Shown here: positions 19,964 through 33,797 of the stretch, one piece after another
Position numbering within the stretch: the stretch's first letter is position 1
Layout of the letters: every line of letters begins with the position of its first letter
Source: Candidatus Bathyarchaeota archaeon
Lineage (GTDB): Archaea > Thermoproteota > Bathyarchaeia > JAPDIZ01
Length of the DNA: 64,000 nt
Reading direction: 5' to 3'
Assembly (NCBI GenBank): GCA_029259355.1
Contig: JAPDIZ010000008.1
Coordinates: 1 to 64,000 of the forward strand
Translations under genes and position numbers: made by a program
The notes under the pieces: model-generated
What the model was told of the DNA's origin: nothing
What the model saw: the letters and a program-made list of their open reading frames with translations, nothing else
The model's database searches: none

Positions 19964-21823
19964 TTAGAGCTCTATCTCAAGCTCCTTCAGCTTCTCAGGG
20001 GTAGGCCTACCATCAACCCATCCGCGAAGCTTGTAGTACTCCTCCTTCATAACGTCTAGCTCAACCACGTGGCCCTTAGCTGGCCCTTCGGGAAGCGGCT
20101 CGGTGAGAAGCCTCTTGGGCAGGACATCGTCTTTTCCGTCGAAGCCGAGCTTGTTGAGCATTACCCTCTCGAGGTTGTAGATGCGTTCGCCTATTCTGAG
20201 CAGCTCTTCAGTGTCCAAGTCCCACCCAGTTACAGCGGATAGTAGCTGAGCATAGTCTTTTGCTCCAAGCGCGAAGGTGGTGAACAAGCAGTTTACGGTT
20301 GAGTTGACTACGCAGGCGAAGTTCTGGGTAGCTATGGCTAGCTGAGCCTTGTTCTCCGTCACCAACGGATCTGCTTTGGTGGGTACGCCCAGTACCTCCA
20401 CTGATATGGTGTAGCCGGTGACGTGGCAACCTCCTCTGTTGGCGGTGGCGTACTCTATGCCAATACCCTTTGCCCCCCTTGGGTCGTAGGCAGGCATCTC
20501 CAAGCCTTTAACGCTCATCGAGTACTCTGGTGCGCCAAACACCTCACAGAGCCTCTTAGAGCCCATAGCTAAGTACTTGCCGAAACCAGACTTGTAGGCT
20601 GTTCTCCAAACAGCTTCGACCATAGCTGCTGCGTTGCCAAACTTTAGGTCAAGCCCCTGAAGCTCCTCCTCAGGGATCAAACCTCTCTCAACAAGCTCCA
20701 TAGCCGCAGCTATTGTTGAGCCCATGCTTATGGTGTCCATGCCGAACTCGTCGCAGTAGTGGTTTGCCTTTACGATGGCGTCTAGCTCCTTTACGCCCGT
20801 TGCGCTTCCAAGCGCCCAAATAGACTCGTATTCGGGGCCTTCTGAGTAGAGTATCTGGTATGGCCCCTTCTCCACCTTAGTTACTCTTCCGCAGGCGATG
20901 GTGCAACCCCAACAAGGCCTCCTCTTTATCAAGTAGGTCTTCTCCAGCGTTTCGCCGCTGATAGCCTCTGCATCTGGGTTGATCGCTGTCTGCCAGTTCT
21001 TGTAGGGGAATAAGCCTCCGTTGTTGATGATGTTGACCAAGATAGCGGTTCCGTAAGTGGGTAAGCCCTCTCCTGTGACGGGGTGCTTCCTCATCTTCTC
21101 AAGCGCTTCCTTGGAAGCCTTCTTGTACTCGTCTGGTCTAGCTACCTCGACCTTCTGCTCACCCGAAACCACTATCGCCTTCAGAAGCTTGGAGCCCATT
21201 ACAGCACCCAAGCCTGTTCTTCCAGCTGCTCTGTGCTCATCGTTCATGATGCACGAGATGTAGACGAGGTTTTCGCCAGCTGGACCTATGCAGGCCACGC
21301 TGGTGTTTTTGCCCCCAACCTTCTTCTTCAAAATCCTACAGGTGTCGAAGACGTTTTTGCCCCAGAGGTCTGAGGCATCGAGTATCTCAGCCTCCCCATC
21401 AACGATAGATAGGTAAACGGGTCTATCAGCAGCTCCTTCGATAATCACTATGTCGTAGCCAGCGAACTTGAGGAATGGGCCCCAATCACCACCTGAGTTT
21501 GCGCTACCTATGGAGCCAGTTAGCGGAGATCTAATAGCCATGACGTGGTATCTACCGGGAGAGGGGAATCCCGCAACCCCAGTAGCTGGCCCGGTCGCGA
21601 AGATGAGGACGTTCTCCGGGCCAAGGGGGTCTATGTCGCGTGGAGCAATACCCTTTGCCTCATACTCCTTGAGATACTGGTAGATTAGGTAGACTGCGTA
21701 GCCCTTTCCGCCTAAGTACTTCCTCGCAACTTCCTCAGAGGTTTTCTCGACCTTGATGGATTCGGTGGATAGGTCTACCTTCAGAATTTTCCCCATATAT
21801 CCTCCTACCAAGGAAAACACCAA
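19964..21823 (-). CDS. Aldehyde ferredoxin oxidoreductase family, tungsten enzyme
   Basis: The 619-aa protein has the AOR layout: N-terminal GGYMGKILKVDLST, pterin-binding domain (TGPATGVAGFPSPGRYHV, SIGSANSGG), and the [4Fe-4S] ligands C304, C307 and C311 in PCWGCTIAC with a later Cys in NCLF. RAAGRTGLGAVMGSK is conserved in the family. It oxidises aldehydes, passing electrons to ferredoxin. It is the first gene of the AOR-MoaD-radical SAM operon. GTG 21823 has a TTTATC box about 28 bp upstream, so it may be leaderless. The substrate is unknown. Confidence 0.92.
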   Translation of the reverse strand: MVFSLVGGYMGKILKVDLSTESIKVEKTSEEVARKYLGGKGYAVYLIYQYLKEYEAKGIAPRDIDPLGPENVLIFATGPATGVAGFPSPGRYHVMAIRSPLTGSIGSANSGGDWGPFLKFAGYDIVIIEGAADRPVYLSIVDGEAEILDASDLWGKNVFDTCRILKKKVGGKNTSVACIGPAGENLVYISCIMNDEHRAAGRTGLGAVMGSKLLKAIVVSGEQKVEVARPDEYKKASKEALEKMRKHPVTGEGLPTYGTAILVNIINNGGLFPYKNWQTAINPDAEAISGETLEKTYLIKRRPCWGCTIACGRVTKVEKGPYQILYSEGPEYESIWALGSATGVKELDAIVKANHYCDEFGMDTISMGSTIAAAMELVERGLIPEEELQGLDLKFGNAAAMVEAVWRTAYKSGFGKYLAMGSKRLCEVFGAPEYSMSVKGLEMPAYDPRGAKGIGIEYATANRGGCHVTGYTISVEVLGVPTKADPLVTENKAQLAIATQNFACVVNSTVNCLFTTFALGAKDYAQLLSAVTGWDLDTEELLRIGERIYNLERVMLNKLGFDGKDDVLPKRLLTEPLPEGPAKGHVVELDVMKEEYYKLRGWVDGRPTPEKLKELEIEL

Positions 21824-22095: not shown

Positions 22096-23862
22096 GTGGC
22101 TGCTTCGGCAGAGCTCTGCGGATGGTTTGGCAGATGTGTCGAAGTCGATCTATCCACTAAGGAGGCTCGCGTAGCTGAGCTAAGCCCCGACTTGCTGTGG
22201 AGGTATATGGGGGGACGTGGGCTCGGAAGCTGGCTTGTTTCGCAGCAAGTTTCTCCAAGCGCAGATCCCTTCTCGAGAGAAAACCTGCTGGTCTTCGCCG
22301 TAGGTCCCCTAACAGCTACACCCGTATACACCTCTGGAAGAGTCTGCGTCGTCTCTAAATCGCCCCTAACCAACGGCCTCTTCTACTCCTCAGCAGGGGG
22401 ATTCTTCGGCGCTTCGCTGAAGAGAGCTGGCTACGACGCTCTGGTGGTGAAAGGTGCTGCCTCTAAGCCCTCAATGATAGTGGTGGATGAGGATGTGGTG
22501 GAGGTTGTGGATTGCGAAGAGCTTTGGGGAAAAAGCACTTCAGAGGCTAGAGAAGCTGTTCAGCAAGACCTTGGACGCGACTTCCGAGTAGCTTGCATAG
22601 GCCCAGCTGGAGAAAACTTGGTCCGAATAGCAAACATCTCTGTAGATCCTGGAGACTTTGCTGGAAGAGGCGGGCTTGGTGCCGTCATGGGGTCTAAGAA
22701 GCTCAAAGCCGTCGCGGTGAGGGGGGAGAAAAGGCCGAGGGTGTTTGACGAAGAAGGGTTGAGGGCTTTTCTCAGGCGCTGCCTTGTCCGCATAAAGTGG
22801 AAGCCAGTCTTGGACAAAGCTCTCTCAGCCTTTGGAACCTCCTTCATCATGCGCATAGTCGACTCGCTGGGGGTTTTGCCCACCAAGAACTTCCTCGAAT
22901 CACGCTTTGAAAAAGCTCAAAACCTCTATGCAGAGGTGTTAAGCGACAGCGTCTTTGCGAAGAAGAGGTCTTGCTTCAACTGTCCTATAGCCTGCAAAAG
23001 GGTTTCGAGAATAGGCGACCGCGTGGTCGATGGGCCTGAGTACGAGTCGCTCGCCGCCCTAGGACCCATGCTGGGGCTGGGAAGAGCTGAGGAGGTTGTT
23101 GAGCTTAATAGGCTGTGTAACGAGCTGGGTATCGACACCATCTCAGCTGGCGTATCCATCGCTTGCGCCATAGAAGCTAGCCAGCGTGGGTTGCTACCAA
23201 CCAAGATCAAGTGGGGAGACTTCGACCAGATACGCTCGCTCTTAGAAGACGTGGCTTACAGGCGTGGGCTTGGCAGCGATTTGGCTGATGGGTCAAAGCG
23301 CTTTGCCTCCAAGGTGGGCGCTTCTGACTGCGCAATGGAGGTTAAGGGATCGGAGGTTCCGATGTACGACCCAAGGGGCTTGTATGGACAGGCGCTTGGC
23401 TACGCAACCTCCAACAGAGGCGCTTGCCACCTAAACCCCTACATGGTCAGCTTAGAGATCTTGGGAACCCCCATACTGATGGAGAGGTTTTCTGAGGCTG
23501 AGAAGCCCGCGCTGGTTGCATACCTCCAAAACCTCTCAGCATCGGTTGACAGCATGGTTTTGTGCAAGTTCCTCTGCCTAGAGTTCGACGAAGACGTGTT
23601 TGCGCAGATGCTCGCCTACGTAACTGGAAAGCCTTACACCCACGAAACCGTTGTGGAGGTTGGGGAGAGGATTTGGAACCTCGAAAGAGCATACAACCTG
23701 AAGTGCGGCATAACCCCCGACCAAGACAAGCTTCCAAAGAGGCTTGTAGAGGGCGTGCCGCTCGAGGAAATGCTTGGGGAATACTACAGGGTTAGGGGGT
23801 GGTCGGAGAACGGCTACCCAACTCCAGAGAAGCTTGAGGAGCTGGGGGTGGAGAGCTCATAG
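22096..23862 (+). CDS. Second aldehyde ferredoxin oxidoreductase paralogue
   Basis: The 588-aa protein matches the neighbouring AOR throughout: WFGRCVEVDLSTKEA, pterin region AVGPLTATPVYTSGRVCVV, Fe-S ligands in RSCFNCPIACKRV (C-x2-C-x3-C), DFAGRGGLGAVMGSKK, and late Cys in MVLCKFLCL. It is divergent in sequence from the first, so the substrate probably differs. GTG at 22096 is preceded by GGGGAGGAG, a strong ribosome-binding match, so it probably has a short leader. No MoaD-like gene follows it, so it may share the carrier and maturase of the first AOR. Confidence 0.9.
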   Translation: MAASAELCGWFGRCVEVDLSTKEARVAELSPDLLWRYMGGRGLGSWLVSQQVSPSADPFSRENLLVFAVGPLTATPVYTSGRVCVVSKSPLTNGLFYSSAGGFFGASLKRAGYDALVVKGAASKPSMIVVDEDVVEVVDCEELWGKSTSEAREAVQQDLGRDFRVACIGPAGENLVRIANISVDPGDFAGRGGLGAVMGSKKLKAVAVRGEKRPRVFDEEGLRAFLRRCLVRIKWKPVLDKALSAFGTSFIMRIVDSLGVLPTKNFLESRFEKAQNLYAEVLSDSVFAKKRSCFNCPIACKRVSRIGDRVVDGPEYESLAALGPMLGLGRAEEVVELNRLCNELGIDTISAGVSIACAIEASQRGLLPTKIKWGDFDQIRSLLEDVAYRRGLGSDLADGSKRFASKVGASDCAMEVKGSEVPMYDPRGLYGQALGYATSNRGACHLNPYMVSLEILGTPILMERFSEAEKPALVAYLQNLSASVDSMVLCKFLCLEFDEDVFAQMLAYVTGKPYTHETVVEVGERIWNLERAYNLKCGITPDQDKLPKRLVEGVPLEEMLGEYYRVRGWSENGYPTPEKLEELGVESS

Positions 23863-23934: not shown

Positions 23935-24441
23935 GTGTGGGAAAAGGAAATTCCTCAACCCTACAAGGAAATCCTCGAGCTGCTGCTCGATTCGCTTAAG
24001 CAGCGCTTCGGCAACGATTTAGTCTCCGTTGTTGTGTACGGATCGGTTGCTAGGGGAGAGGCGCGCGCTGACAGCGACGTAGACTTGCTTATAGTGGCTA
24101 AAAACCTTACGCGCAACAGGCTGAAGAGGCAGAGCTTGTTCATGGAGGTTGAGAAAAGCGTTGAGCCTCTCGTAGAGGAGCTGTGGGAGAAGGGGGTGTA
24201 CGTAGACTTCTCCCCCATCCTCAAGACCCCAGAGGAAGCTAGCAGGTTGTCCCCGCTATACCTCGACATGGTCGATGATGCAGTGATCCTATACGACAGA
24301 GACGGCTTTTTCTCAAAGGTTTTGGATAGACTGAGGAAGCGCCTACGCCAGCTTGGGGCGAAGAGGGTTAGAGCTGGCAAGCTTTGGTACTGGGTTCTTA
24401 AAGAACCCTACTCCATTGGGGAGCGTATAGTTATTGAATAA
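23935..24441 (+). CDS. Minimal nucleotidyltransferase antitoxin, second MNT-HEPN pair
   Basis: VVVYGSVARGEARADSDVDL carries the full GS...D-x-D nucleotidyltransferase motif. The rest (LILYDRDGFFSKVLDRLRKRL-like segment, LWYWVLK) aligns by eye with the MNT at 3351-3863, so both modules descend from one. GTG at 23935 starts 72 bases after the second AOR gene. Its 168-aa length is normal. The following HEPN gene starts with TTG inside its last codons (ATTGAATAA), so translation is coupled. Confidence 0.87.
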   Translation: MWEKEIPQPYKEILELLLDSLKQRFGNDLVSVVVYGSVARGEARADSDVDLLIVAKNLTRNRLKRQSLFMEVEKSVEPLVEELWEKGVYVDFSPILKTPEEASRLSPLYLDMVDDAVILYDRDGFFSKVLDRLRKRLRQLGAKRVRAGKLWYWVLKEPYSIGERIVIE

Positions 24442-24868
24442 CGAGGCCATGGCTCGCTCTCACATGAAGCAGGCTGCGGAGAGGCTTAAGCACGCTGAGG
24501 AAGCGCTTGAGGGAGGAAACTACCCATACGTGATTCGGCAGAGCCAAGAAGCCGTTGAGCTGGCGCTGAAGGCAGTTCTCAGATTCGTTGGCATAGAGTC
24601 TCCGAAATGGCATGACGTAGGCCCTGTCCTCAAGCGAAACAGCGACCGCTTTCCGCAGTGGTTTAGGGAAAAGATACCGAGGCTTGCATCCATCTCCAGA
24701 AGGCTTAGGAGGGAGAGAGAGCCCAGCATGTACGGAGACGAGGAGACGGGCACCCCTCCAGAGGAGCTCTACACGAGAGAGGATGCTGAGGAAGCTCTTC
24801 AAAGCTCAAAAGAGGTTTATGAAGCTTGTGCAAAGCTTTTGAGAAGTTTCGGGCTTGACTTAAGGTGA
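24434..24868 (+). CDS. HEPN-domain toxin, second MNT-HEPN pair
   Basis: The 144-aa helical protein shows SHMKQAAERLKHAEEAL, the central IRQSQEAVELALKAVLRFVG, KWHDV, and RREREPSMYGDE, the RNase motif region with Tyr in place of the usual His, as in the first pair. TTG 24434 overlaps the MNT stop, and its own stop overlaps the next gene's GTG as GTGA. The downstream aldolase therefore may be translated from the same message. Confidence 0.85.
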   Translation: MNNEAMARSHMKQAAERLKHAEEALEGGNYPYVIRQSQEAVELALKAVLRFVGIESPKWHDVGPVLKRNSDRFPQWFREKIPRLASISRRLRREREPSMYGDEETGTPPEELYTREDAEEALQSSKEVYEACAKLLRSFGLDLR

Positions 24869-26487: not shown

Positions 26488-26952
26488 ATGGATTTATGGA
26501 GGCTGGCTGGGGTGAGGGTTCCTATCTCCGCAAGATCTAGAGTAAGGGACGTAATGACTAAGGAAGTAGTCACCGTAGAATCTTCGGCGTCTGTTCAAGA
26601 AGCTGCTGAGCTGATGAACGGCAAAAACATCGGTAGCTTGGTAGTTGTTGAGCAGGGAGCCCCCGTCGGCATAATCACCGAGAGAGATATCGTAAGGAAG
26701 GTTGTGGCTAGGCGAAGAAACCCTGAGGAGGTTAGGGTTTCGGAGATAATGTCCAAGCCCCTCATCCACGTCTCGCCAAACGCCTTCATATTCGAAGCAG
26801 CTGAGCTCATGGGCAAGAACCAGATAAGGAGGCTGCCGGTGATAGAGAGGGAGGCGCTCGTGGGCATAATCACCATGTACGATATAATAAAGCACTACAG
26901 GGAGATGGCTTACTCGCTCATCGACATGATGTCAGCTATCTCGCGCATCTAG
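26488..26952 (+). CDS. Tandem CBS-domain protein
   Basis: The 154-aa protein is two CBS domains in a row: VRDVMTKEVVTVESSASVQEA with GIITERDIVRKV, and VSEIMSKPLIHVSPNAFIFEA with GIITMYDIIKH. A pair binds adenine nucleotides such as AMP or ATP, usually to regulate a partner. No enzymatic domain is attached. The TTTAAA box at 26466-26473 is only about 18 bp from ATG 26488, so GTG 26512, with GGAGG upstream, may be the true start. Confidence 0.88.
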   Translation: MDLWRLAGVRVPISARSRVRDVMTKEVVTVESSASVQEAAELMNGKNIGSLVVVEQGAPVGIITERDIVRKVVARRRNPEEVRVSEIMSKPLIHVSPNAFIFEAAELMGKNQIRRLPVIEREALVGIITMYDIIKHYREMAYSLIDMMSAISRI

Positions 26953-27557
26953 CCGAAGAAGCTTTTCCTAACCCTTTCGCCATACTCGAGCCCAGCCTTA
27001 ACCACCCGGTAGATGAGCAAACCCTTCTCCTCGCCATAGGCCTCCACCAAAACCCTCTTCACAACCTCTTCGCTAACCTCGCGCTTAGCTATCGCCAGCG
27101 CAACCCCCATCAAGAACATGTTTCTCATCTCGATAGGAAGCTTCGCCTCCCTAAGCAGGTGCTCAGCGTCAACGTCGACAAGGTGTACTCCCCTCCTCCA
27201 AGCCTCCTCCGTCATCCTGTCGAGCCAGTACCTTATCAGGGGTTGAGAAGAGTCCACCACTGCTATGCCGCCCCTCTCCATCCCGCTGATCGACGAAACC
27301 GGATTTCCCACTGGGCTGAGCATGATCACCAAATCCGCAGACTCCGTCCTCTCTGTAGTCGCTACCGAGTACTCCTCGTCTCCCCTCCCCAAGAAGGGTG
27401 GGAAGAGCCACTTTCTGCCAGTTGAGCCGTCGGATTGGGGCTGAAGCCTCCCCACAACCCTAGCTCCAAGAGCGGAGAGGGCCTCGACTAGGTCGTAGGC
27501 TACGTAGGTGAACCCTGAGCCCTTGCTGCCTATTACGCAGATGTCGTACCTCCTCAA
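26949..27557 (-). CDS. 2-oxoacid:ferredoxin oxidoreductase gamma-like subunit
   Basis: The 202-aa protein starts YDICVIGSKGSGFTYVAYDL and has SVATTERTESADLVIML and VDSSQPLI, typical of the gamma subunit of 2-oxoacid or indolepyruvate oxidoreductases. TTG at 27557 overlaps the upstream Fe-S gene's stop as TTGA. It is the last gene of a four-gene operon (TPP-beta, alpha, HdrD-like, gamma). The gamma subunit is thought to help bind the CoA or the partner in POR-type enzymes. Confidence 0.72.
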   Translation of the reverse strand: MRRYDICVIGSKGSGFTYVAYDLVEALSALGARVVGRLQPQSDGSTGRKWLFPPFLGRGDEEYSVATTERTESADLVIMLSPVGNPVSSISGMERGGIAVVDSSQPLIRYWLDRMTEEAWRRGVHLVDVDAEHLLREAKLPIEMRNMFLMGVALAIAKREVSEEVVKRVLVEAYGEEKGLLIYRVVKAGLEYGERVRKSFFG

Positions 27558-28651
27558 ACCCTCCTAACCCCCGCTTCACTAACCAGTTGATATAGCTCCA
27601 CAACCCTAACCCCTGCCTTAAGCCTCCTCGAAGCACCCTCTAGGTTGGTGGTGCAGAAGGGGCATTGCGTAACCAAAACTTCTGCTTCAACCTTCTGAGC
27701 ATCTTGTACCCTAGCCTCTGAGAGCCTCCTAGCTAGCGAGAAGTTGTACAGCCTCAGCGTAGAGCCGCAACACCTCGTATGCTCTCCTCTCCTAAGCATT
27801 TCCACCAGCTTCACTCCAGGAATCCTCCTGAGAACCTCTCTCGGCTGCTCAACAACTCTCTTTGGCCCAAGCGCTAGGTGGCAGGGGTCGTGGTAGGTGG
27901 CTACCGCTTCGACCGACTTGCTGAACTCAACCACCCCCTCCTCTACGAGCCTAGCAAAGACCTCTGAGTAGTGTAGTACGCGAAAAGCAGGCCTACCCAC
28001 CAGCACGGGGTAGTCTCTCCTCCACGCTAGGTCGCAGAGGGGGCAGAGCGTGATCAGCGTATCTATGCGCATAGCCTCAAAGCTTCTCACGTTTTCCTCT
28101 ACAAGCGGTAGAGTAGCGTCGTACATCCCGGCTCTAACCAGCACCGCTCCACAGCACCTCTCCTCTGGGCAAACGACTACGTCTAGCCCAGCTTCGAGGA
28201 GGGTGGTGTAGGCGGCTTTGGCGGCTTCAACAGCTGAGAAGGCGTAGGTGCAGCCTACGAAGAGCGCGCACCTCCCAAAGAGATCAGTGGCTCGCGCATA
28301 GGGCTCGATACGCTTCGAAACGCTCTCAAGCCAGCTAAATCTCTTCTCAGCGGGCTTTGGGAAGGGGCTTCCAAACTTGCGTATGGCTTCTCGCGTCGGC
28401 GAAAGCTCCTCAAGCGGCTTCCTCCACCTAGCCTCCTCTATAGCTGGTGTGCCAGGAAGCCCCCACGGACAGGATATCTCGCAGAGGTTGCAGCCCACGC
28501 AGTTCTTAGCAACTTCAGCCGCCTTATCCCACTCCCTCAGCCTTATGTAGGTGAACATTAGCCTCCTGTTGACTCCTCCAGGACACCTCACCTCGCAGAA
28601 CCCGCAGCCCCTACACTCGTCAGCAACCCTAACCAGCTCCTCTTCCGTCAG
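27554..28651 (-). CDS. HdrD/GlpC-like Fe-S protein with two CCG domains, CTG start
   Basis: From CTG 28651 the product (365 aa) has two N-terminal [4Fe-4S] motifs, CRGCGFCEVRC and CVGCNLCEISC, then two CCG domains (LFVGCTYAFS with CPEERCCG; ATYHDPCHLA with TRCCGSTLRLY) and CPFC. These bind the non-cubane clusters of heterodisulfide reductase HdrB/HdrD and GlpC. There is an in-frame TGA just upstream and no ATG, GTG or TTG before the first cluster; the GTG used by the shorter frame would remove it. CTG is preceded by AGGTGG. Its place inside a 2-oxoacid oxidoreductase operon suggests electrons go to a disulfide or quinone-type acceptor. Confidence 0.8.
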   Translation of the reverse strand: MTEEELVRVADECRGCGFCEVRCPGGVNRRLMFTYIRLREWDKAAEVAKNCVGCNLCEISCPWGLPGTPAIEEARWRKPLEELSPTREAIRKFGSPFPKPAEKRFSWLESVSKRIEPYARATDLFGRCALFVGCTYAFSAVEAAKAAYTTLLEAGLDVVVCPEERCCGAVLVRAGMYDATLPLVEENVRSFEAMRIDTLITLCPLCDLAWRRDYPVLVGRPAFRVLHYSEVFARLVEEGVVEFSKSVEAVATYHDPCHLALGPKRVVEQPREVLRRIPGVKLVEMLRRGEHTRCCGSTLRLYNFSLARRLSEARVQDAQKVEAEVLVTQCPFCTTNLEGASRRLKAGVRVVELYQLVSEAGVRRV

Positions 28652-28673
28652 AGCCCACCTAGCTATGCTAATC

Positions 28674-29687
28674 TCAACCCCCCCTCAGAGCCTTAGCCAA
28701 GTGGCTGAGAGCCTTCTTGGCGTCTCCCACCACCCCAAGGTCGGCTATGGCCATGGAGGCCGCCAAGAGGTCTACGTTGATGGAGATCACGTAGTCTGCG
28801 TTGAACTTGACGCCGAACATGTCGTAGGATACCCCAGCCAGAACCACCACCTCAGCCTCTACGAAGTTCCCCGTGTTTATCCCAGTAGGGATCATCCCTT
28901 TGGTCTGCGGAAAGACCGAAGCGGGTTTTGTGCAGAAGACCCTCACCTCAGTGCCTCTCTGCTTCAAAGCATCTGCAAGCCCCCAAACCTCCTCCAAAGC
29001 CCCATCCCCAAGTATAGAGGGCCATGCGGGAAGCCCCATCTTGACGGTTTCGACGCCTAAGCAGCCCTTCCCCACCACCAAGGCGACGGAGCTTGCAAGC
29101 TTGAGCGCTCTAGCAGCTTCCTCCAAGTCCTCCAGCTTGGGCTCAGGAGGCTCTGGAGCTATCTCTCCGATGACGTCAAGCTCCTCTGAGGAAACCCCGT
29201 GCATAGCCAAGTCCTCGGTTACGTAGACAGCCACCATCCTGTGCTCTCGCCACGCAATCTCAAACGACTTCTTCACCGCTTCGTAGATTTCTGCGTGCCT
29301 CATGGGGATGAGGTTGATCACGCCCGTCTCCTCCAACACCCTTGGAAGGTGTGGCGAGCCTACGTAGGAGCCTCTCCCATCCACGTCTAGCCCAACCACT
29401 AGGACGACTGGAGTGGCAACCTCCTCAGCGATGAGCTGGTAGGCGACGTTAACTCCCTTGTCTTTTATCACCGCGCAGGCCTTCTTCCCAGCCTGAGCCG
29501 CTCCTATGGCTATGCCGACGGCGTCTGCCTCCGTAGCCACGTTTAGGACCGCCACATCCTCGCCTAGGGCACCAGCGATTATGAGGTTTTGAGCTTGGTT
29601 GAGGGGAAATCCCGGTAGGACGGTGACCACTGCCGGCTTAACCTCTCGAAGAGCATCCACTACCAGCTCGTTACCAGTTTTGAACAA
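28674..29687 (-). CDS. 2-oxoacid oxidoreductase alpha-like (PP-domain) subunit
   Basis: The 337-aa protein starts TGNELVVDALREVKP, has a VLPGFPLNQ loop and VATEADAVGIAIGAAQAG, matching the pyrimidine-binding (PP) domain with its conserved Glu of 2-oxoacid:ferredoxin and indolepyruvate oxidoreductases. The second half has a Rossmann-like central domain (VALVVGKGCLG). It lacks Fe-S motifs. TTG 29687 lies 11 bases after the beta gene. The Fe-S protein and gamma follow. Substrate is not determined; an aryl or branched 2-oxoacid would be normal for this type. Confidence 0.75.
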   Translation of the reverse strand: MFKTGNELVVDALREVKPAVVTVLPGFPLNQAQNLIIAGALGEDVAVLNVATEADAVGIAIGAAQAGKKACAVIKDKGVNVAYQLIAEEVATPVVLVVGLDVDGRGSYVGSPHLPRVLEETGVINLIPMRHAEIYEAVKKSFEIAWREHRMVAVYVTEDLAMHGVSSEELDVIGEIAPEPPEPKLEDLEEAARALKLASSVALVVGKGCLGVETVKMGLPAWPSILGDGALEEVWGLADALKQRGTEVRVFCTKPASVFPQTKGMIPTGINTGNFVEAEVVVLAGVSYDMFGVKFNADYVISINVDLLAASMAIADLGVVGDAKKALSHLAKALRGG

Positions 29688-29698
29688 AGCACCACCAC

Positions 29699-30235
29699 CT
29701 ACTTCAGCGGTGCGCAGTAAGCCACGATAAGCTTGATGCCAAGCGTCTTCTTAGCCTCCAAGCAAGCTTCCCTAAGCTCCTCCCTCGAGTAGACGTTTTT
29801 CGACATGGGGAGCCCAAGAGACCTGCCGAAGGCTGCGTAATCCACTCCCAAAGCAGAGGGGGTGGTTCTCTGCCTACCCGTCATCCCCCACCCCATGTCG
29901 TTAAGCACTATGATGGTTAGCCTCTTGACGAGATGCCTGTTCATGTAAGCAGTTACCAACGAGTTTAGGTGTAGCCCAAACCCCCCATCCCCGACGACGC
30001 AGAACACCTCTCCCTTGATGGAGTCGTTTGCTACGGCGTGCCCGATAGCCACCGAGACCGCTCCCCCCAAAGCGCCCGTCCCTCCTATGCACTGCTCCCT
30101 CGGAACTCCTGCGATCATCGCAGCAAGCACGTTGTCGCCTAAGTCGAGGCATACGCCGTCTTCTGGCGAAAGCGCTTCCACCAGCCCAGCCACCATCTCC
30201 TGCATTCTCTGAAGCTTCGCGCCTTCTTTCAACAT
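29699..30235 (-). CDS. TPP-binding beta-like subunit of the oxidoreductase
   Basis: The 178-aa product holds the TPP/Mg motif GDGGFGLHLNSLVTAYMN ending in VLNDMGWGMTG, the G-D-G...N-N pattern with Asp for the second Asn. GGTGALGGAVSVAIGHA is the substrate-channel region of the same fold. It is short, so it carries only the TPP-binding domain; the PP domain is the adjacent alpha gene. ATG 30235 is the first gene after a TTAATAT promoter and a GAGGTG Shine-Dalgarno. The alternative is a decarboxylase of sulfopyruvate or phosphonopyruvate type, but the CCG and gamma neighbours favour an oxidoreductase. Confidence 0.75.
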   Translation of the reverse strand: MLKEGAKLQRMQEMVAGLVEALSPEDGVCLDLGDNVLAAMIAGVPREQCIGGTGALGGAVSVAIGHAVANDSIKGEVFCVVGDGGFGLHLNSLVTAYMNRHLVKRLTIIVLNDMGWGMTGRQRTTPSALGVDYAAFGRSLGLPMSKNVYSREELREACLEAKKTLGIKLIVAYCAPLK

Positions 30236-32916: not shown

Positions 32917-33240
32917 CTAGGGGAGGAGGGATTTCTTCAGAAAGTAACGCACTATAGCTCTTCTGTGCCTGTTTCTCGAGAAAATGCCTCTTAACACCTT
33001 GGAGGTTCTTGCGAAGAACTTCTGGTAGCAGAGGTTCATTAGCCGCTGAACCTCTTCAGGCGAAAGCTCCTTAGTCCTCATAACGGTGTGGGCGAAGTCG
33101 TATCTGGAGAAGTCTCTAACCACGAGCCACCCCTCCCTCTCGACCCATTCGTACAGAGGCGTTCCCGGTAGGGAGGTTAGGGGTGTGAAGATGGCGAAGT
33201 CTGGATCGAGCCTCTTGACGAACTCCATGAACTTAGTGGG
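32917..33240 (-). pseudogene. C-terminal fragment of a B12-binding radical SAM protein
   Basis: About 105 residues read like the end of a cobalamin-binding radical SAM protein (BchE type): FVKRLDPDFAIFTPLTSLPGTPLYEW, then DFAHTVMRTKELSPEEVQRLM and a basic YRKF-like tail. The N-terminal radical SAM core and B12 domain are absent, because from about 33240 the frame turns into the antisense of the adjacent GH3-like remnant. It is a truncated relic joined at a deletion or insertion point. Confidence 0.6.
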
Positions 33241-33274
33241 TGCTTCTATGGATAGGAGCGGCTGAAGGAAGAGG

Positions 33275-33797
33275 CTTGAGGCTTTGGCTGAGGAGTGTTT
33301 GAGCAAAGACGTTTCGATTGTTGTTGGCGCACCCTTCTTCTTAGAGAAGTTTGGGAAATTCGTTAAGAAGAGGTTTAGCAAGCCTCCTGCCAAATTCTGG
33401 TGTGTTGAACTGATTTTCTGCGCTGGTGAGCCAAAGATACACACTAGGTATGCCCCGGTTTTGAGGAAGCTCTATGGGGAAAAAGCTGATGTTGTTGAAG
33501 GGTATGGCGCGACAGAAGGGGGTCTTTATGGCTCAAGTCAACGAAAAGCCCACCCTATCCCCCTTCTATGGAGCTATCCTCTACGAGGTATTCGATGGTA
33601 AGGGGGTGAAGCTTCTTCACCAGATGAAGCGCGGCGAAATGGGCTATCTGGTGGTTTCGACGCTAACACTCCTTAGATACTGGATGGGGGATGTAGTGGT
33701 GTGTTTGGAGAATAGCAAGCGCTTTAGGGTCTTGGGCAGGGATACGCTTCCCAACCGCTTTCGCGTTGGCATAAACCGCTGGGTGCGACAGCTTTAA
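33275..33797 (+). pseudogene. Broken GH3-like (acyl-adenylate-forming) ligase fragment
   Basis: The first part (EALAEECLSKDVSIVVGAP, AGEPKIHTRYAPVLRKLYG, DVVEGYGATEGG) and the second part in another frame (GVFMAQVNEKPTLSPFYGA, LLHQMKRGEMGYLVVST, YWMGDVVVCLE) together read as the middle and C-terminal parts of a GH3-type adenylating enzyme. The frame changes near 33515. The N-terminal half is missing, cut at the junction with the radical SAM fragment. Both are decayed. Confidence 0.6.

Follow-up and report, generated by a model that had tools for sequence, protein, structure and literature searches.

In anaerobes, the oxidation of 2-oxoacids is a major entry point for low-potential electrons, and the usual acceptor is taken to be ferredoxin. 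Among the described systems closest to the one reported here is the indolepyruvate oxidoreductase IorAB (TIGR03336, TIGR03334) of the 2-oxoacid:ferredoxin oxidoreductase (OFOR) type, in which IorA is a single chain with a C-terminal Fer4 domain (as in locus L115). Others are the thiamine pyrophosphate (TPP) enzymes of the acetolactate synthase (ALS) and pyruvate oxidase type (TPP_enzyme_N, M and C), the sulfopyruvate decarboxylase ComDE (TIGR03845, TIGR03846), which carries its PYR and PP domains on separate chains, and, on the side of electron transfer, the dicluster-CCG family of HdrD, GlpC and TfrB. In a stretch of 64,000 nucleotides from Candidatus Bathyarchaeota archaeon (positions 1 to 64,000 of contig JAPDIZ010000008.1, assembly GCA_029259355.1), called the window hereafter, a four-gene unit brings together features of all of these. 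As judged from its sequence, it is best read as a 2-oxoacid dehydrogenase whose electrons leave through an HdrD-like protein, and it is known from one genome.

The unit occupies positions 30235 to 26949 on the minus strand, and its genes follow head to tail in the 5′ to 3′ order beta, alpha, HdrD/GlpC-like and gamma, exactly where the original prediction had placed them. The gene for beta (29699–30235, minus strand) starts with ATG and encodes 178 amino acids with a PP (TPP-binding) domain; 11 bases separate it from alpha (28674–29687, minus strand), a protein of 337 amino acids with a TTG start that combines an OFOR-type PYR domain with a middle domain of the ALS/EtfA type. The HdrD-like open frame (27554 to about 28681, minus strand; up to 375 residues) abuts the end of alpha, and its stop is overlapped by 4 bases by the gene for the OFOR-type gamma (26949–27557, minus strand; 202 amino acids, TTG start). 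The four genes are real and not chance open frames. Their in-frame codon scores are 0.25–0.32, compared with 0.17–0.30 in 16 other genes of the window, and the remaining five reading frames at the unit score at most 0.07. When 20 shuffles of each protein served as a chance control, alpha scored 64.2 against the ALS-like profile (shuffle maximum 21.5), beta reached a profile score of 101.2 (19.6), and gamma scored 44.8 against the IorB profile (17.1).

The original prediction had proposed an OFOR-type unit of unusual make-up, in which an HdrD-like protein takes over from the ferredoxin part, and the predicted fold of gamma together with the PYR and PP domains bears out the OFOR type. In Pfam, gamma matches PF01558 (POR) with 33.4 bits, above the cut-off of 27.4. 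Family profiles were built from loci gathered in this analysis (13–20 rows for most sets, 5 for IorB), with labels set by eye and then verified on examples with Pfam and NCBIfam, and the best of them for gamma is IorB, at 89.1%. An AlphaFold2 model of gamma, made with no alignment (pLDDT 68.6, pTM 0.70), retrieves OFORs in rows 1–9 of a Foldseek search against the PDB. With VIA-align, rows 1–16 are all gamma subunits or domains of OFORs (Z 14.3–9.3, rmsd 3.0–4.1, 147–168 residues), followed by MurC and other Rossmann folds at Z of at most 9.3, which tie with the lower OFOR rows but not with the upper ones. From its sequence and its model, gamma is a genuine OFOR gamma.

Alpha appears to be a hybrid chain, a feature missing from the original prediction. 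When its halves are compared separately with hhalign, residues ~1–175 match the POR alpha profile at 94.1% and IorA at 92.4%, whereas ALS-like and ALS profiles reach 0.3% and 3.2%. Residues ~176–337 behave the other way round, with 94.1% for ALS-like and 81.4% for EtfA, and at most 0.7% for IorA, PORa and OFORa2. These matches point to an OFOR-type PYR domain joined to a domain of the ALS-middle or EtfA FAD type, which would stand in the place of OFOR domain II. A candidate catalytic residue, Glu53, aligns with the conserved glutamate of ALS-like proteins and IorA. As a whole, alpha matches ALS-like proteins over residues 3–336 in hhalign, and a plain split ALS was therefore considered and rejected, since the match is confined to the second half in the half-by-half test. 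Curated models see little of the chain: Pfam reports PF00205 alone, with 20.2 bits (cut-off 30.4), POR_N has no match at E 0.001, and the best NCBIfam model is a sulfopyruvate decarboxylase subunit with 26.7 bits (cut-off 147.95). The core domain II of the PFOR_II/TKC type was not found in alpha by Pfam and is present in the genome's own PorA and in the alpha subunit of locus L158; PFOR_II is also absent from IorA at E 1e-5, so that by Pfam it is no universal feature of OFORs. A mixed alpha of this kind would link TPP-enzyme families that are kept apart in classifications, at least in the available portion of PMC2831816.

Beta carries the PP domain and, at residues 82–112, the motif GD-X28-N, as defined in the available portion of PMC2831816. 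Pfam assigns it to PF02775 (TPP_enzyme_C) with 63.1 bits (cut-off 21.9), and the profiles place it closest to the PP domain of ALS-like proteins (98.3%), followed by that of IorA (94.8%) and, far below, PORb (13.8%). Its best NCBIfam model is sulfopy_beta, with 44.9 bits far short of the cut-off of 221.5.

Set beside the described systems, the unit resembles IorAB in that IorB is the best profile for its gamma, and IorA is among the best matches for both the PYR half and the PP domain. Unlike IorAB, it has PYR and PP on two chains, a middle domain that is not that of IorA, no Fer4 domain and an added HdrD-like chain. To ALS and pyruvate oxidase it is alike in beta and in the second half of alpha, but its chains are split and its PYR half does not match. 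The separate PYR and PP chains recall ComDE, from which it differs by its low scores with the ComDE models and by its extra middle domain, its gamma and its HdrD-like chain. Of the features of the OFOR superfamily, the unit has the gamma domain and an OFOR-type PYR and PP, and it lacks core domain II and an Fe-S site of its own in beta, delta or a fused ferredoxin.

The third gene encodes a CCG protein with two 4Fe-4S motifs, as had been predicted. Pfam detects PF02754 (CCG) in two stretches with 93.1 bits, plus 4Fe-4S dicluster models. The protein has two CxxCxxCxxxC motifs (C23–C33 and C61–C71) and two complete CCG sets (C144/C176/C177/C213/C216 and C267/C304/C305/C340/C343), and thus all 18 ligand-type cysteines of the family, eight for two [4Fe-4S] clusters and the rest in the CCG sets. 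It has the same domains as HdrD, GlpC and TfrB, but it stays below all curated cut-offs and has a TPP enzyme as its partner. Its NCBIfam scores are 152.3 bits for TfrB, 132.9 for LdhH and 106.1 for GlpC (cut-offs 385, 800 and 278), and the HdrB-type models CoB_CoM_SS_B (35.6 of 345.15 bits) and hetero_SS_HdrB (24.5 of 450) are not reached either; the curated models listed include none for HdrD.

No CxxC occurs in alpha, beta or gamma, and cluster motifs are confined to the HdrD-like chain, whereas CxxC is present in 13/13 IorA, 13/13 OFORb2 and 15/20 PORb rows, some of which are fragments. If the unit is an oxidoreductase, the HdrD-like protein is therefore its only visible electron exit. In the proposed mechanism, alpha (PYR) and beta (PP) would jointly bind TPP and decarboxylate a 2-oxoacid, and gamma, which in OFORs usually belongs to the side that handles CoA and the acyl group, would serve as the OFOR gamma subunit of the putative complex. 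Electrons would pass from the TPP intermediate to the two N-terminal [4Fe-4S] clusters of the HdrD-like subunit, standing in for ferredoxin or delta, and then by the CCG clusters to an acceptor other than ferredoxin, possibly a disulfide or a protein linked to quinones, or else some other carrier. What the sequence shows directly is the gene order, the domains, the motifs and the predicted fold of gamma; the joint complex, the 2-oxoacid substrate, its oxidation, the electron path and the acceptor are inferences. The coupling to disulfide reduction suggested in the original prediction finds no support in the sequence, which does not name the acceptor, and HdrD-like relatives adjoin FAD dehydrogenases or HdrA and Etf. 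CoM-S-S-CoB is unlikely in this role because McrA has no match in the genome (95.28% complete); the same search was positive in two control genomes, both of methanogens. To a 2-oxoacid dehydrogenase of the OFOR type, with unusual subunits and the HdrD-like part replacing the ferredoxin part, we give about an even chance, and such an enzyme would probably be soluble. A unit with an HdrD-like protein as its sole cluster-bearing part would show that electrons from 2-oxoacids can go elsewhere than to ferredoxin.

The same composition could belong to an OFOR of the ordinary kind that reduces ferredoxin, with the N-terminal dicluster replacing delta or ferredoxin and with CCG domains that have no catalytic part. 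The dicluster motif, the OFOR gamma and the lack of any further cluster site suit such an enzyme, which we nevertheless consider unlikely, since every ligand cysteine is kept in both CCG motifs. This includes C213 of the first motif, a position occupied by Ser in 16 of the 70 HdrD-like proteins aligned (query included), among them all seven of the OFOR-linked rows displayed.

OFOR genes beside HdrD-like ones are not new in themselves, and to that extent the novelty claimed for the combination does not hold, although its make-up remains unusual. In the phylum, presumably Thermoproteota, 129 of 398 genomes (the window genome counted) have matches to the HdrD-like protein at E 1e-25, the best of the others with 34% identity. 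We compared the neighbourhoods of 42 distinct HdrD places, chosen by hand among the top-ranked matches and covered by 43 stretches, two of which share a place. OFOR gamma, HdrA and Etf accompany the gene in 13 of them; a further 7 have HdrA and Etf, 4 have HdrA only, 12 have a GlcD-type FAD oxidase (one also with an HdrA-like match), and 6 have none of those partners. The 13 loci (L126, L127, L133, L138, L139, L140, L143, L145, L146, L150, L153, L157 and L158) come from several families of the same phylum and share one order of seven genes, OFOR-alpha, beta, gamma, HdrA, HdrD-like, EtfA and EtfB; the stretch of L139 ends before EtfB. Their HdrA, of ~1130 amino acids, has two FAD/NAD-binding parts and an FlpD-like end, and the gene identities were verified by Pfam and NCBIfam in L158. 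From its gene content, this operon is a candidate electron-splitting 2-oxoacid oxidoreductase.

Like the seven-gene operon, the unit pairs an OFOR with a CCG protein of the HdrD type, but it has neither HdrA nor EtfAB, and its alpha and beta are of another kind (OFORa2 1.2%, OFORb2 11.7%). The 13 OFOR-linked HdrD proteins form one clade with support of 100/100, and that of the window is not part of it; its long branch (1.82) and unusual composition leave its exact position unsure. A cut-down version of the seven-gene operon was rejected on the grounds of this clade and of TPP subunits that do not match. Because its HdrD-like protein falls outside the clade and the unit lacks HdrA and EtfAB, the pairing in the window looks independent, and OFOR and HdrD-like proteins would have come together more than once within the phylum. 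More far-reaching, and in our view doubtful, is the proposal of a new enzyme class between two TPP families. It would combine PYR and gamma of the OFOR type with a nucleotide-binding domain and a PP domain of the ALS/EtfA type, send electrons through its HdrD-like subunit to a disulfide or a quinone-linked acceptor rather than to ferredoxin, and have arisen independently of the seven-gene operon. Neither the four-gene unit nor the OFOR-HdrA-HdrD-EtfAB operon was found in published accounts, as covered by titles and the openings of abstracts, with subscription literature thinly represented.

Several observations weigh against reading the unit as an HdrD-linked 2-oxoacid dehydrogenase. Conserved synteny in relatives, which had been proposed as a check, was not seen, since the searches turned up orthologs of neither alpha nor beta. 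Among 256 genomes of the class, alpha finds itself alone at E 1e-6; the same-class genomes listed in this search are all of families other than that of the window genome. Across the 398 genomes of the phylum, 70 have a match at E 0.001, and those other than alpha itself are without exception weak matches (1.9e-6 at best), almost all of them partial, to frames of the IorA, OFOR-alpha or EtfA type, while 44 genomes of another class give none (0/44 at 1e-7). For beta, the phylum yields 6 matches at 1e-8 including itself, and the others are ALS-type frames of 574–599 amino acids. Scans of genome contigs from 84,980 species, which used exact words of 8 residues, left out the window's own genome and may miss distant orthologs, returned 90 stretches for alpha, with zero confirmed, and 123 for the core of beta. 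The latter contain 7 relatives, all bacterial, and no alpha, gamma or HdrD was found alongside them; two of the loci, L079 and L081, are barely readable and possibly use another genetic code. Gamma and the HdrD-like protein have no match in viral contigs. In addition, a structure model of alpha, made with four ALS-like proteins aligned, is unusable (pLDDT 44.3), and HdrD-like genes of the same genome also occur with other partners, for example a FAD_binding_4 gene in L118.

A further difficulty concerns where the HdrD-like gene starts, as its frame has no ATG, GTG or TTG ahead of the first cysteine motif, and the listed GTG start at 28591 would leave the first cluster with only one of its four ligands. 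At the junction with alpha, where the frame begins, lies a run of 7 G (28678–28684, minus strand), which is the sole run of G or C of at least 7 within the window. From the sequence, one of two things must hold: either the gene uses a rare start codon, or it is joined to alpha at this run, by a frameshift or because the sequence is wrong there. The true length of the run would tell whether the two genes are distinct or share a frame.

Enzymes of the ALS type, which beta and the C-terminal half of alpha resemble, include many that are not oxidoreductases. This also counts against an oxidative role, and it leads to a non-oxidative TPP enzyme of the sulfopyruvate decarboxylase or acetolactate synthase type; gamma and the HdrD-like protein would then act in a different reaction or merely be co-transcribed. 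The sulfopyruvate decarboxylase models at the top of the NCBIfam results for both chains, although below cut-off, fit such an enzyme as well. We assign it a low probability: ALS has neither gamma nor an OFOR-type PYR (the ALS-like L076 shows TPP_enzyme_N, M and C in Pfam), a gamma or HdrD-like gene occurs in 0/36 ALS-like loci, most of them only 3–4 kb long, and all four genes of the window unit overlap or nearly overlap. A flavin enzyme, pyruvate-oxidase-like or electron-splitting, in which FAD in the second half of alpha feeds the HdrD-like subunit, has the ALS-like and EtfA matches of that half (with 25.7 bits for mft_etfA in NCBIfam) and the precedent of the OFOR-HdrD-EtfA operons on its side, but it is very improbable, as the flavin motif GVSGASHF of EtfA reads GVSYDMFG in alpha, the G-R of ALS-like proteins is not conserved in the alignments, and in middle domains of the ALS type a bound nucleotide often has a structural role only. 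Residues 176–337 of alpha may still bind FAD.

Elsewhere in the genome, the only other PF01558 gene is part of a canonical pyruvate:ferredoxin oxidoreductase (POR), and no IorA-type frame of 600-odd residues was found among its four PF02775 matches, the one of 591 amino acids being an acetolactate synthase. On another contig (L114, 64–7758), the canonical POR set is divergent from a cluster of molybdopterin oxidoreductase, 4Fe-4S protein, HdrB-like and HdrC-like genes.

Around the unit, a gene for an M42 peptidase lies upstream on the same strand and ends ~170 bases before it, and downstream the last 4 bases of gamma are shared with a convergent gene for a CBS-domain protein on the opposite strand. 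Two divergent genes for aldehyde:ferredoxin oxidoreductases (19964–21823, minus strand; 22096–23862, plus strand) and one for an aminotransferase are also found nearby, a setting in keeping with amino-acid breakdown, though no proof of it. At 23935–24868 on the plus strand, overlapping genes encode a nucleotidyltransferase (PF01909) and a HEPN protein (PF05168), in what we take to be the usual arrangement of an MNT-HEPN toxin-antitoxin pair. Finally, the region 32917–33797 holds short overlapping frames on both strands that resemble remnants of larger genes.

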